From the NCBI RefSeq assembly GCF_900110615.1, contig NZ_FOEI01000002.1, positions 62,001-126,000 of the forward strand: a stretch of 64,000 nt of DNA, in the 5' to 3' direction. The translations under genes and the position numbers were made by a program. A model generated the notes under the pieces. That model was not told the origin of the DNA. It did not search any database and saw only the letters and a program-made list of their open reading frames with translations. Positions within the stretch are counted from its first letter, which is position 1, and the number at the start of each line of letters is the position of its first letter. Of this stretch, positions 195-52,863 are shown one piece after another. The DNA comes from Flavobacterium urocaniciphilum. Its GTDB lineage: Bacteria > Bacteroidota > Bacteroidia > Flavobacteriales > Flavobacteriaceae.

Positions 195-200
195 TAACAA

Positions 201-260
201 GTGTTCAGTGAACAGTATCAGTAAACAGAAAACTGAGACTGAAAACTGAGACTGAAAACT
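201..260. repeat. Heptad-type tandem repeat in the atpD-atpC spacer
   Basis: The spacer is made of 7-bp words with some 6-bp variants. GAAAACT occurs three times (228-234, 241-247, 254-260), alternating with GAGACT (235-240, 248-253), so 228-240 and 241-253 are perfect 13-bp copies. The preceding words GTGTTCA, GTGAACA and GTAAACA follow the same rhythm. It does not look coding. Four other spacers in this window carry repeats of the same style with different words. Confidence 0.8.
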
Positions 261-269
261 AATTAAGAT

Positions 270-21282: not shown

Positions 21283-21357
21283 TTTTTTCTAATTTAGAAA
21301 TTAGAGTTTAGAAGTTAGAAAATTGATTCTGAATTCTAAATTCTTAGTTCATAATTT
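21283..21357. repeat. Heptad-type repeat between nuoD and nuoE
   Basis: On the plus strand the spacer reads as 7-bp words of NTTAGAA type (TTTAGAA, ATTAGAG, GTTAGAA), then passes into TCTRAAT-type words (TCTGAAT, TCTAAAT). The two halves are roughly complementary, so the nuo transcript could fold here. No ORF. The sequence style matches the other spacer repeats of this window. Confidence 0.65.
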
Positions 21358-47229: not shown

Positions 47230-49143
47230 ATGAAGAAGTATATTTTTCTCATTTTCAGTATTGTTACTATGAATGCAAACGCTCAGGAAAATTTAACGCC
47301 AGAAAAATTATGGCAAATTGGTAGAGTAACTCCAATTGGAATTTCTAAAGATGGAAAATCTTTAATATACAAAGTAGGAACACCAAACATTCAAGAAAAT
47401 AAAATCATTTCAAAGTTTTATTCTGTGCCTGTTGGTGGAGGAAATGCTACATTATTAGAGAAAATTGACGGATTGGTTGCTGATAAAAATATTTCTCCGT
47501 CTGGTAAAGAAAAATTGTTAAATAATGCTGTTAAAGTAGAAAAATTATTGGGTTCTGATTTATATCCTGAATTAACCAAAACAACTGCTCAGGTATATGA
47601 TAACTTAGATTATCGTCATTGGGATACTTGGAATGATGGTACGCATAATCATGTTTTTATTGAAACTATTGGTTCAGAAACAGAAAATGTTTTGCCAGCA
47701 ATCGACATCATGAAAAACGAACCTTATGATTCGCCTCAAAAACCACATGGTGGAGATGAAGATTATATTTGGTCTCCAGATGGAACTAAAGTTATTTATG
47801 TATGTAAGAAAAAAGCAGGAACTGCATACGCTTTAAGTACAAATACCGATTTGTATGAATACGATATCAATACGCAAAAAACTAGAAATTTAACGGAAAC
47901 TAATTTAGGTTACGATACGCATCCATCTTTTTCGCCTCAAGGAGATTTAACTTGGTTGCAAATGAAACGTGATGGTTATGAAGCTGATAAAAATGATATT
48001 ATTGTGCGTCATAAAGGAATGGATATCAATTTAACAGCTAGTTGGGACGGTACGGTTGATAGCTTCTTATGGAGTAAAGATGGTAAAAAAGTATATTTTA
48101 TTGCACCAGTTGGTGGAACAAAACAATTGTTTGAGGTTAATTTCCCTGGTTTAGCAAGAATTGCTGTTAGAGTTGTTCAAATAACAGATGGGAATTTTGA
48201 TGTAAGTGGATTTGTTGGATTTTCGGGAACTTCTGTTTTAGTAACTAGAACTTCTCATACAATGGCTACTGAAGTTTTTTCTTATGATTTAACTAAAAAA
48301 TCTTGGAAACAAATAACTAAAGTAAATGATGAATTTTATTCAAAAATTGCAAAATGTACTTCTGAAAAAAGAATAGTAACTACTACTGATGGTAAGAAAA
48401 TGGTTGTTTGGGTAATTTTACCACCAAACTTCGATAAAACTAAAAAATATCCAACACTTTTATATTGTCAAGGTGGACCACAAAGTGCTTTAACACAATA
48501 TTATTCTTTCAGATGGAATTTTCAATTAATGGCTTCTCAAGGCTATATTGTAGTGGCTCCGAACAGAAGAGGAATGCCAGGGCATGGGGTGAAATGGAAC
48601 GAACAAATTTCAGGAGATTGGGGCGGACAAGTAATGGACGATTATTTAGCAGCAATCGATGATATTTCAAAAGAAGCGTATGTAGATAAAAACCGACTTG
48701 GAGCTGTTGGTGCGAGTTACGGAGGGTATTCGGTATTTCAATTAGCGGGAATTCATAAAAACCGTTTTAAAACGTTTATTTCTCACTGTGGAATTTTCAA
48801 TACAGAAAGTATGTATGGAACAACAGAAGAAGTTTTCTTTACAAATTGGGATTCAGGTGGAGCTTATTGGGAAAAAGATAATAAAATTGCTCAAAAAACA
48901 TATAACGAATTCAACCCGATTAAATTGGTTAACAATTGGAATACACCAATCATGATTATTCAAGGTGGAAAAGATTATCGTGTGCCAATTGGTCAAGGTC
49001 AAGAAGCATTCCAAGCAGCGCAATTAAAAGGAATCAAAAGTAAGTTTTTGCTATTTCCAGATGAAAATCACTGGGTGTTAAAACCACAAAATGCGTTGGT
49101 TTGGCAAGGTGAGTTTTTCAAATGGTTGAAAGAAACTTTGTAA
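47230..49143 (+). CDS. S9-family peptidase, exported (DPP4/acyl-peptidase-like)
   Basis: 637 residues from ATG 47230, the start that gives a clean signal peptide (about 1-19, ends ANAQ). Residues about 20-380 contain WD40/PD40-like propeller repeats (DEDYIWSPDGTKVIYV, DGTVDSFLWSKDGKKVYFI). The C-terminal hydrolase has S496 in GASYGG, D582 in GGKDYRVP and H614 in DENHWV, with HGVKWNEQISGDWGG before the nucleophile. Probably trims peptides in the periplasm. Distinct subfamily from the S9A enzyme at 31407. Confidence 0.9.
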   Translation: MKKYIFLIFSIVTMNANAQENLTPEKLWQIGRVTPIGISKDGKSLIYKVGTPNIQENKIISKFYSVPVGGGNATLLEKIDGLVADKNISPSGKEKLLNNAVKVEKLLGSDLYPELTKTTAQVYDNLDYRHWDTWNDGTHNHVFIETIGSETENVLPAIDIMKNEPYDSPQKPHGGDEDYIWSPDGTKVIYVCKKKAGTAYALSTNTDLYEYDINTQKTRNLTETNLGYDTHPSFSPQGDLTWLQMKRDGYEADKNDIIVRHKGMDINLTASWDGTVDSFLWSKDGKKVYFIAPVGGTKQLFEVNFPGLARIAVRVVQITDGNFDVSGFVGFSGTSVLVTRTSHTMATEVFSYDLTKKSWKQITKVNDEFYSKIAKCTSEKRIVTTTDGKKMVVWVILPPNFDKTKKYPTLLYCQGGPQSALTQYYSFRWNFQLMASQGYIVVAPNRRGMPGHGVKWNEQISGDWGGQVMDDYLAAIDDISKEAYVDKNRLGAVGASYGGYSVFQLAGIHKNRFKTFISHCGIFNTESMYGTTEEVFFTNWDSGGAYWEKDNKIAQKTYNEFNPIKLVNNWNTPIMIIQGGKDYRVPIGQGQEAFQAAQLKGIKSKFLLFPDENHWVLKPQNALVWQGEFFKWLKETL

Positions 49144-49285
49144 TGTGTCGATTAGACAATTTGTCAATTAGCCGATTTTATATATAAATCAGGCCTAACA
49201 GGTTTCTAAAGGCTATTAGGTTTTAAAATAAATTAAAAATTTACAATAACAATTCTTCCCTCCTTTGGAGGGAGATAGAAGGAGG
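49142..49285. repeat. Composite spacer: 8-bp repeats, CCTAA/TTAGG hairpin, CCTCC/GGAGG hairpin
   Basis: Three blocks. 49142-49181: 8-bp words of RATTWGNC type (GATTAGAC, AATTTGTC, AATTAGCC and a variant). 49192-49220: a degenerate stem beginning CCTAACAGG and ending TTAGG. 49258-49272: CCCTCC/GGAGGG with a TTT loop, with GGAGG again at 49281-49285. The last GGAGG sits 6 nt before the next ATG and could act as a Shine-Dalgarno, unusual in this group. Confidence 0.65.
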
Positions 49286-51672: not shown

Positions 51673-51677
51673 TTAAA

Positions 51678-51712
51678 ACTTCTGACTTCTATCTTCTGAC
51701 TTCTAACTTCCT
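51678..51712. repeat. 7-bp tandem repeat between divergent tspO and mvaD
   Basis: Five head-to-tail words of ACTTCTR type (two of them ACTTCTA, one ACTTCTG, two variants). The array fills the gap between the -7 elements of tspO (51665-51672) and mvaD (51717-51724), so it covers the place of both -33 elements. Confidence 0.8.
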
Positions 51713-51738: not shown

Positions 51739-52830
51739 ATGTTCACGGATAAAGATTTTATTCTTTCAAATTATAATTCAATTGAAAAGGCTTCATTTTC
51801 TTGGAGTGCGCCAAGTAATATTGCATTAGTTAAATATTGGGGTAAAAAGGAAAATGGCGATCAAATTCCTGCTAATCCTTCAATAAGTTTTACATTGAAA
51901 AATTGTAAAACAATTACTTCTGTAGCGATAACTTCAAAAGATGAAAAAGAAAATTTTTCTTTCGACTTATTATTTGAAGGAAAGCCAAAAGAAGATTTCA
52001 AACCAAAAATCCAAAAATTCTTAGAGAGAATTTATCCGTATTGTCCGTATTTAAAAGAATATCATTTTGTAATTGATACCCAAAATACGTTTCCACATAG
52101 TTCTGGAATAGCGTCTTCTGCATCTGGAATGGCAGCTATTGCGATGAATATTATGAGTTTGGAAAAAGCCATTCAACCCGAAATTTCTGAAGAATATTTT
52201 TATGCAAAATCATCTTTCTTAGCACGTTTAGGGTCGGGTAGTGCATGTAGAAGCATTAAAGGAAATGTGGTTGCTTGGGGAGAAAATGTAACAATTAAAA
52301 ATAGTTCCGACTTATTTGGTGTAGAATTTGATGCTATTCATTCGAATTTTCATAATTTTCAAGATACTATTTTATTAGTAGATAAAGGAGAAAAACAAGT
52401 TTCAAGTACGGTTGGGCATAATTTAATGCATAATCATCCGTTTGCTGAACAACGTTTTGAGCAAGCACATGACAATATTGCAAAAATTGTTGCGTTATTA
52501 GAATCGGGAAATGTAACGGATTTTATGAGTTTGGTAGAAAGTGAAGCGTTAACATTACACGCTATGATGATGACATCAATGCCTTATTTTATTCTAATGA
52601 AACCAAATACTTTGGAAATAATTAATAAAATTTGGAAATTCAGAAATGAAACGCAAACACCTGTGTGTTTTACATTAGATGCTGGTGCAAATGTGCACGT
52701 TTTGTATCCTTCATCTGTGAAAGAAAAAGTGTTGCAATTTATTCAGAACGAATTAGTTGGCTATTGTCAAAATGGTCAGTATATTTGTGACGAAATTGGA
52801 AATGGTAGTCAGTTGCTAATTAATAATTAA
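51739..52830 (+). CDS. mvaD: Diphosphomevalonate decarboxylase
   Basis: A 363-residue GHMP-fold enzyme. It decarboxylates mevalonate diphosphate to isopentenyl diphosphate with ATP. Signatures: SAPSNIALVKYWGKKE near residue 25, PHSSGIASSASGMAAIA (the GHMP P-loop variant), LARLGSGSACRSI, and the catalytic Asp in TLDAGANVHVLYP. The last codons and stop are built from the 7-bp repeat that follows (…LINN). Mevalonate kinase lies downstream. Confidence 0.93.
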   Translation: MFTDKDFILSNYNSIEKASFSWSAPSNIALVKYWGKKENGDQIPANPSISFTLKNCKTITSVAITSKDEKENFSFDLLFEGKPKEDFKPKIQKFLERIYPYCPYLKEYHFVIDTQNTFPHSSGIASSASGMAAIAMNIMSLEKAIQPEISEEYFYAKSSFLARLGSGSACRSIKGNVVAWGENVTIKNSSDLFGVEFDAIHSNFHNFQDTILLVDKGEKQVSSTVGHNLMHNHPFAEQRFEQAHDNIAKIVALLESGNVTDFMSLVESEALTLHAMMMTSMPYFILMKPNTLEIINKIWKFRNETQTPVCFTLDAGANVHVLYPSSVKEKVLQFIQNELVGYCQNGQYICDEIGNGSQLLINN

Positions 52831-52863
52831 CAATTAATAATTGATAATTAACAATTGATAATA
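52816..52863. repeat. 7-bp tandem repeat over the mvaD stop codon
   Basis: Six units of ATTRAYA (52819-52860: ATTAATA, ATTAACA or ATTGATA each) run head to tail through the end of mvaD into the spacer. The first one and a half units are coding and give the LINN tail. Confidence 0.85.

Follow-up and report, generated by a model that had tools for sequence, protein, structure and literature searches.

Complementary arms of changing seven-letter words: a candidate structure-conserved hairpin in the atpD–atpC spacer of Flavobacterium and its relatives

The spacer between atpD and atpC in Flavobacterium and its relatives usually carries two arms built from short repeated words, and these arms stay mutually complementary while the words themselves vary between species. 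In our judgement, the chances are about even that this represents a structure-conserved intercistronic hairpin with a loose seven-letter grammar – made by slippage, replaced in blocks and presumably functional. The reference case is found in the window, i.e. the whole 64,000-nt stretch of Flavobacterium urocaniciphilum DNA that was analysed.

There, the whole atpD–atpC spacer (75 nt, 195–269, + strand) runs from the atpD stop codon (192–194) to the atpC start codon at 270. The identity of atpD is given by the NCBIfam profile TIGR01039 (771 bits, cut-off 463) and that of atpC by Pfam PF02823 (63.4 bits, cut-off 27); AtpC falls slightly short of the NCBIfam epsilon model TIGR01216 (61.8 against a cut-off of 67.25). 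In the predicted RNA fold of 190–270 (−18.4 kcal/mol, z −3.52), a left (5′) arm of CAGT-type words at 200–228 pairs with a right (3′) arm at 233–260, both on the + strand; in the latter, ACTGAG and ACTGAAA words form a 7 + 6 = 13-nt unit, as the lag-13 score also indicates. Between the end of the right arm at 260 and the atpC ATG, 9 nt are left unpaired. The sequence-only reading had listed 201–260 among four loci with a 7-bp period, yet its lag-7 score is 5.8 (per-lag p 0.051, 2000 mononucleotide shuffles) and its strongest period is 13 (score 20.4, reached by 0 of 2000 mononucleotide shuffles), with 7- and 6-nt units alternating. The focal spacer does not keep a strict period 7; its word arrays form an inverted pair, in other words a hairpin. 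When its two arms are scored against the heptad template described below, the p values are 0.002 and 0.054, the window spacer itself being among the profile’s input. Searched against Rfam at gathering thresholds, the window gives no match.

The AtpC protein encoded downstream (270–551) is 93 amino acids long, and the sole domain matched is the N-terminal β-sandwich (PF02823), from which it seems that the protein lacks the C-terminal helical domain.

The comparison with relatives rests on 81 atpD–atpC spacers, namely that of the window and the named loci of the best 80 of 561 relatives in an AtpC scan – a set that is for this reason skewed towards close kin, nearly all Flavobacteriaceae. Seventy-five of them are at least 40 nt long, and the other six measure 11–23 nt. 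Among the 75 longer spacers of this set, 67 reach a lag-7 score of at least 9 and none does so at lags 4–6 or 8–12, whereas only 20 of 251 control co-directional spacers (40–110 nt, same DNA) have such a score at lag 7. The fold z is below −2 in 72/75 atp spacers against 104/251 controls, and below −3 in 54/75 against 84/251; period 7 and a fold z below −2 occur together in 64/75 against 11/251 (mononucleotide shuffles; 67/74 with other shuffles). Hairpins alone are not special, being common in control spacers: even among spacers without lag 7, a z below −2.5 is seen in 41/89 co-directional and 16/20 convergent ones. The atp spacers are also similar in size, with 66 of the same 75 measuring 60–95 nt, and their arms span from about 3 nt (median) past the atpD stop to about 12 nt (median; quartiles 7–15) before the atpC start. 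Given the short spacers in 6/81 close-relative and 10/29 family-level loci, the hairpin must nonetheless be dispensable.

It is very improbable that these hairpins are intrinsic transcription terminators. Stem-forming sequence is certainly present, and heptad arrays are found in 8/131 convergent but 3/166 divergent spacers (p 0.065); against this, a TTTT run within the last 15 nt is absent from 71/75 atp spacers, including the window’s (the four that have it are L048, L054, L091 and L097), the last 9 nt are 62% A (75 spacers) and the spacer sits within an operon. More generally, heptad arrays are not significantly enriched at the 3′ ends of genes when convergent and co-directional spacers are compared with divergent ones (p 0.60).

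What unites the atp spacers becomes apparent from their arms rather than from any one word. Clustering by k-mers divides them into 19 word classes, and the left/right words of individual species include CAGTGTT/CACTAAT, GTTGTTA/CCATCAA, AATTGAY/RTCAATT, GAAGTYA/TCTAACT and TTATGAG/ACTCATA, among others. In a non-redundant set of 50 spacers out of 123, with other genera included, the arm-to-arm alignment covers a mean of 25 nt at 78% identity, and it is better than all 30 shuffles in 40 spacers, the other ten failing this comparison. Within the arms of these 50, the lag-7 value is 0.56 on the left and 0.73 on the right, compared with 0.21–0.32 at lags 5, 6, 8 and 9. When the arms are aligned by phase, the consensus is T-N-A-R-T-T-N for the left (n = 48) and A-A-Y-T-N-A-W for the right (n = 46) – in other words, a template of ARTT on the left and AAYT on the right, with three freer bases besides. 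This template holds 1.97 bits per heptad on the left and 2.53 on the right, whereas controls in which the heptad columns were permuted with the period kept (12 each) reach at most 1.43 and 2.03, respectively.

The complementarity belongs to each species’ own pair of arms. The mean duplex energy is −16.8 kcal/mol for own arms and −8.5 kcal/mol for arms swapped between species; in the comparison with clearly dissimilar spacers, the mean difference is −9.7 kcal/mol, with a p of 8e-14 that is optimistic because the sequences are related, and in 28/74 cases no swap pairs as strongly as the own arms. Selection on the coding-strand RNA through G–U pairs was considered separately and is unsupported: wobble-capable mismatches number 58 in the sense and 67 in the antisense orientation (p 0.47, 50 non-redundant spacers), and the antisense strand folds better, the sense strand being the better one in just 26/74 (p 0.005, redundant set).

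The right arm also stands in a characteristic relation to the start codon. The last AACT, CACT, AATT, GACT or TACT ends 6–9 nt before it in 29/49 spacers (shuffled: 5/45) and lies directly against the ATG in 12 further spacers of the 49. In Flavobacterium johnsoniae, the initiation stretch is described as A-rich, with A at −3, −6 and −12/−13 (PMC6847099, in the part of that paper drawn on here). As the last right-arm word mostly ends 6–9 nt before the start, most of this A-rich stretch would lie outside the stem. The same arrangement might suggest that a protein binds RNA or DNA at an array of sites ahead of start codons, as has been proposed for the TAACTGA repeats of Beggiatoaceae, most of which are said, in the relevant sections of the paper describing them, to lie several nucleotides or less from start codons (MacGregor 2015, PMC4679880). 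The right arm, which adjoins the start codon, is indeed the more regular one (41/50 by count, some arms being too short for a paired test) and is G-poor (0.067) with an AAYT core. However, such an array would have no need of a complementary upstream arm, and about 3/7 positions vary freely, so that we regard it as quite unlikely.

Another striking property of these spacers is how loosely they are tied to the genes around them. Over all pairs, the correlation between spacer identity and host identity is negligible (Spearman 0.05). There are 252 pairs whose atpC DNA is at least 0.85 identical and whose spacers are less than 0.6 identical – the pairs being non-independent and dominated by a few clusters – including L037/L041 (flanks 0.95–1.0 identical, spacer 0.46) and L107/L108 (flanks 0.94–1.0, spacer 0.54), while unrelated spacers align at a median identity of about 0.59. 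Conversely, 47 pairs have a spacer identity of at least 0.8 despite an atpC identity below 0.8; the spacers of L041 and L077, for example, are 0.96 identical, with atpC past base 60 merely 0.67–0.68. Unrelated spacers beside 95–100% identical flanks, together with near-identical spacers in diverged hosts, indicate that whole spacers are replaced.

This was followed into the flanks in ten cases, hand-picked from the tree, in which flanking DNA was compared with that of the sister and of the species with the look-alike spacer. In seven of the ten (L077, L043, L102, L108, L060, L094 and L088), the flanks resemble those of the sister up to 30–60 nt from the spacer; in L081, they clearly do so on the downstream side alone; in L084, the last 150 nt of atpD follow the look-alike, pointing to a tract that takes in the flank; and in L087, neither is favoured. 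Several of these cases thus have a spacer that is different throughout, enclosed by coding DNA that matches the sister’s up to 30–60 nt from it. Block replacement between species fits these painted flanks, the ends of the recombination tracts escaping placement because the nearest 30–60 nt of coding sequence are near-invariant.

Replacement is not the only mode of transmission. Mapped on an AtpD+AtpC tree – a weak one (19/74 inner branches starred), which is not a species tree and from which L065 and L054 were left out – the word classes require at least 43 changes over 79 tips, compared with a mean of 55.7 and a minimum of 51 for shuffled labels; the figure of 43 is conservative, since cluster c00 pools several related words. 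Word turnover is thus frequent, yet non-random, and among pairs with an atpC identity of at least 0.95 (n = 77), 27% have the spacer in common at 0.8 or above, so that vertical inheritance must play a part as well.

A search with the L041 spacer through 249 genus genomes, covering as a rule three candidate regions per genome and therefore yielding lower bounds, found at least 126 genomes with a match at E ≤ 1e-4. Among the matches listed, six reach at least 90% identity over at least 71 of the 76 nt (query included), and all of these are atpD–atpC spacers (L272 was assigned to atpC by eye); among the matches made into loci, the long non-atp ones (L261, L262, L276 and L277) have 78–83% identity, and the rest are single arms. 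Our reading of these matches is that entire spacers are probably exchanged, for the most part allelically, and that words are common to several loci. Independent exchange of single arms was a weak candidate: both arms are common to 103 pairs, the right alone to six and the left alone to two, the single-arm counts being near the shuffled background, and the one convincing chimera is L071 versus L083.

Some smaller differences between spacers were noted by eye. In genome collections with a single genome for each species, L060 and L043 are exactly one 7-nt step apart, and the sister MAGs L059 and L060, of which the former lacks the hairpin, differ in a manner that fits a deletion between TCAATTA direct repeats. 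The AATTGAT-word spacer is accompanied by a TAG atpD stop codon in L043, L059 and L060, which belong to two separate clades; most other spacers follow a TAA.

With these exchanges in mind, one may ask whether the spacer is a mobile palindromic element (REP/BIME- or MITE-like) that has inserted repeatedly into operon spacers. This is unlikely, although a single genome does contain the same words at numerous loci, the atp and nuo spacers exist in long and short orthologous forms, and the matches at L261, L262, L276 and L277, among those listed, extend over most of the cassette. On the other side, the differing block has no constant ends but runs from stop codon to start codon, and the matches of at least 90% over at least 71 nt, among those listed, are all at atp. 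The own genome also has no match to the Y1 (RAYT) transposase PF01797, the sole family searched, while 5/14 control genomes are positive – the ground on which REP/RAYT elements were rejected – and the fixed short palindrome consensus of REP/BIME elements differs from the atp arrays, whose words change by locus and species.

A purely mutational origin also has to be weighed, in which slippage makes the arrays, template switching in quasi-palindromes keeps them complementary, loss is rare and no function is selected. We consider it possible but doubtful. The strong homogeneity within arms, the arrays with many words at other sites of the genome and the variability of 4/8 heptamer VNTR loci among isolates of Flavobacterium psychrophilum (reported in the typing data of PMC4501049) all accord with it; it leaves unexplained, however, why period 7 should be so concentrated at atp (67/75, in the window and the best 80 of 561 relatives, versus 20/251 controls), why spacers of different words should be similar in length and why unrelated spacers should stand beside 95–100% identical flanks.

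Beyond the close relatives, the period becomes sparser. In wider samples, which overlap with the set of named relatives, lag 7 is found in 21/29 loci of the genus (6 short), in 9/29 of the family (10 short) and in 9/29 of the phylum, these 29 being the new loci that scored best among 118 genomes. These last nine comprise four loci of the same genus, one of the same family, L209 and L210 of the same order, and L212 and L214 of the same class; among the seven loci fetched from outside the class, whose start positions are uncertain, none has it. Within the class, then, some representatives of other genera, other families and other orders have the period as well. The nuoD–nuoE spacer offers a second orthologous site: of 30 genus loci, 14 have lag 7 – by eye mainly with the single word AGATTTT/AAAATCT – and 12 are shorter than 30 nt. 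It is a tentative proposition, with rather less than even prospects, that architecture and not sequence is what is inherited in a structural element of the class Bacteroidia: ARTT/AAYT heptad hairpins in orthologous operon spacers across orders, swapped between species from stop to start, for which any word would do provided that both arms pair, a length of some 75 nt is kept and the start stretch stays open.

Two further observations concern neighbouring or orthologous spacers. In four species (L153, L156, L159 and L162), the nuoD–nuoE spacer contains a recurrent TTTGTGCCTTTGCGCCTTTGTGGC-like unit with a period of 8–9. In several species, a second spacer about 2–3.5 kb downstream of atpC holds AGAAAAT/TTTTCTA-like arrays (L083:12846-12962, L084:12780-12880, L099:13517-13597 and L101:3989-4202).

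Heptad arrays are not confined to these operons. In a genome sample of 464 kb out of 2.848 Mb, made up of the window and, from five contigs, 20 further stretches of 20 kb each, the excess of lag 7 anticipated by the sequence-only reading was borne out: the 261 spacers contain 7 near-perfect lag-7 segments against a mean of 0.35 (maximum 2) in 20 dinucleotide shuffles, and lags 14 and 21 are likewise prominent. At the looser threshold of 11, there are 13 segments at lag 7 (3 inside the window), 8 at lag 14 and 0–3 at each of the other lags 4–6 and 8–13. The plain fraction of matching bases was discarded as evidence, as it is unspecific (z 4.4 at lag 7, 5.0 at lag 2 and 3.1–3.6 at lags 3, 8, 10 and 14). 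Away from atp, strong arrays are uncommon, a lag-7 score of 12 being reached by 23/870 non-atp spacers. By eye, several word sets recur, namely GTTAGAA, AATTTAG, CAGTNNN, AATTRAY and GGAGTTG; the own atp spacer has 12 further matches at 10 places of its own genome (E ≤ 0.001), and that of the sister species has 21 matches in the same genome (E ≤ 0.1), which means that the words are not private to one locus. The earlier claim that each locus has its own word was accordingly half right: words do differ by locus, yet many loci and species use the same ones again, and a common template underlies them.

As judged by eye, one long array of the own genome (G000:C9:143593-143703, L002) repeats a 13-nt unit five times (CAGTCTCAGTGTT) and is accompanied by a short inverted counterpart; it apparently sits between convergent genes.

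Within the window, the arrays proposed from the sequence are for the most part real, and three of the four loci credited with a 7-bp period have it at significance (0/2000 mononucleotide shuffles each, as a per-lag p). The nuoD–nuoE spacer at 21283–21357 (− strand; lag-7 score 12.2) holds inverted TTAGAA/TTCTAA heptad arrays, with arms at about 21291–21320 and 21326–21356, and folds with z −3.05 on the + strand but just −2.01 on the coding (−) strand. At 52813–52862 (+ strand), an array of AATTAAT/AATTGAT/AATTAAC is self-complementary, with a near-palindromic word (lag-7 score 20.8 for 52819–52860; fold z −3.90); it begins inside a diphosphomevalonate-decarboxylase gene, at the 3′ end (ORF end 52830), and extends toward a mevalonate-kinase-like gene. 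The array of AACTTCT/GACTTCT at 51677–51711, unassigned to a strand, has divergent genes on either side and no inverted partner (lag-7 score 13.0 for 51678–51712), and neither of its folds is significant (z 0.15 and −0.81). All three fit the heptad template (p ≤ 0.016). The claimed 8-bp words at 49142–49181 (+ strand), by contrast, are indistinguishable from chance (lag-8 p 0.054, template p 0.67, fold z −0.31). Of the proposed arrays, 51677–51711 is a plain direct one, and three fold: the focal inverted pair at 195–269, 21283–21357 (more weakly on its coding strand) and 52813–52862.

How might such spacers arise and persist? The sequence-only reading proposed local slippage acting on each spacer, and the lag-7 excess and strong periodicity within arms do fit tandem amplification. 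As the whole story, it falls short at atpD–atpC: slippage alone cannot keep two arms complementary, fix the position and size of the spacer or swap a block beside unchanged genes. A combination of selection for the hairpin with short-tract recombination can account for the complementarity, the size and the block swaps. On the structure-conserved reading that we prefer, arms would lengthen and become homogeneous through replication slippage in 7-nt steps, and whole spacers would be replaced from a recurring cassette pool through homologous recombination over short tracts, for which the near-invariant sequences closing atpD and opening atpC would provide the anchors. The most tentative step is that selection may retain the hairpin as a determinant of mRNA decay or translation between β and ε – ATP synthase needs β in three copies and ε once – possibly while leaving chiefly the A-rich initiation stretch unpaired.

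If this is true, a conserved operon element would escape both sequence alignment and covariance models of the Rfam type, since hardly any base is conserved in it and what persists is periodicity, self-complementarity and position. The spacers would also provide a natural test of the role of intercistronic hairpins in bacteria without Shine–Dalgarno sites, a clean marker of very short-tract recombination between species and a context for the heptamer VNTRs used in Flavobacterium typing.

Several known systems resemble the atp arrays in part. The STRR heptanucleotide repeats of cyanobacteria likewise have period 7 and are intergenic, with words that, as far as is known, are fixed genus-wide. Integron attC sites have 7-nt core sites, but their arms would stand in the opposite order, for which reason this identity was set aside. 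Both spacer-borne heptamer repeats and the switching of intergenic regions within species are already known; searches of the open-access literature turned up no description of paired heptad arms combined with word turnover at an orthologous spacer.

The closest parallel in position is offered by TAACTGA arrays, reported in Beggiatoaceae, cyanobacteria and five Bacteroidetes (MacGregor 2015, PMC4679880). According to the passages of that paper dealing with the repeats, Gramella and Aequorivita have other heptamers alongside TAACTGA, close relatives of the hosts have shorter spacers with no obvious repeats, and Mrazek et al. 2007 are cited there for the abundance of heptanucleotide repeats and for an idea of polymerase contact. 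Like the atp arrays, these are intergenic heptamers that often lie close to start codons; unlike them, they consist of one fixed word in direct orientation, with no particular RNA structure predicted, and the same passages describe neither paired arms nor word turnover at an orthologous spacer (PMC4679880). Tandem TAACTGA (two copies, either strand) occurs in 0/123 atp spacers, and a single copy in 21/123.

Like heptamer VNTRs and other simple sequence repeats, the atp spacers have a period 7 that exceeds shuffles, although the focal spacer’s own period is 13. In F. psychrophilum, the typing study lists 12 VNTRs, eight of them heptamers with different words and 7/8 of these intergenic (PMC4501049). 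Eight loci (four heptamers) vary among 53 isolates, with one to nine repeats; four loci, all heptamers, were invariant in 11 isolates and were dropped; and when one isolate was passaged 12 times, 0/8 of the variable loci changed (PMC4501049). These data, as far as the study’s locus descriptions go, imply that heptamer copy number can vary between strains, though not everywhere; the loci serve as typing markers, and these descriptions mention neither hairpins nor a comparison of orthologous sites between species (PMC4501049). A survey of prokaryote satellites includes, among the families it presents, heptamer-derived ones (PMC6749651).

The G-rich heptamers of Xanthomonas and Nostoc favour spacers between co-directional genes, as is the case here, yet they form G-quadruplexes and belong to one consensus type, and the abstract mentions no inverted pairs (PMC4692102). 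Finally, the intergenic-region switching detected by Piggy resembles the atp case in that homologous gene pairs flank non-homologous spacers, which that paper attributes to recombination (PMC5890482). As that paper’s account has it, the switching concerns isolates of one species and many loci (PMC5890482), whereas at atpD–atpC it takes place between species, at one site, and the structure is kept.
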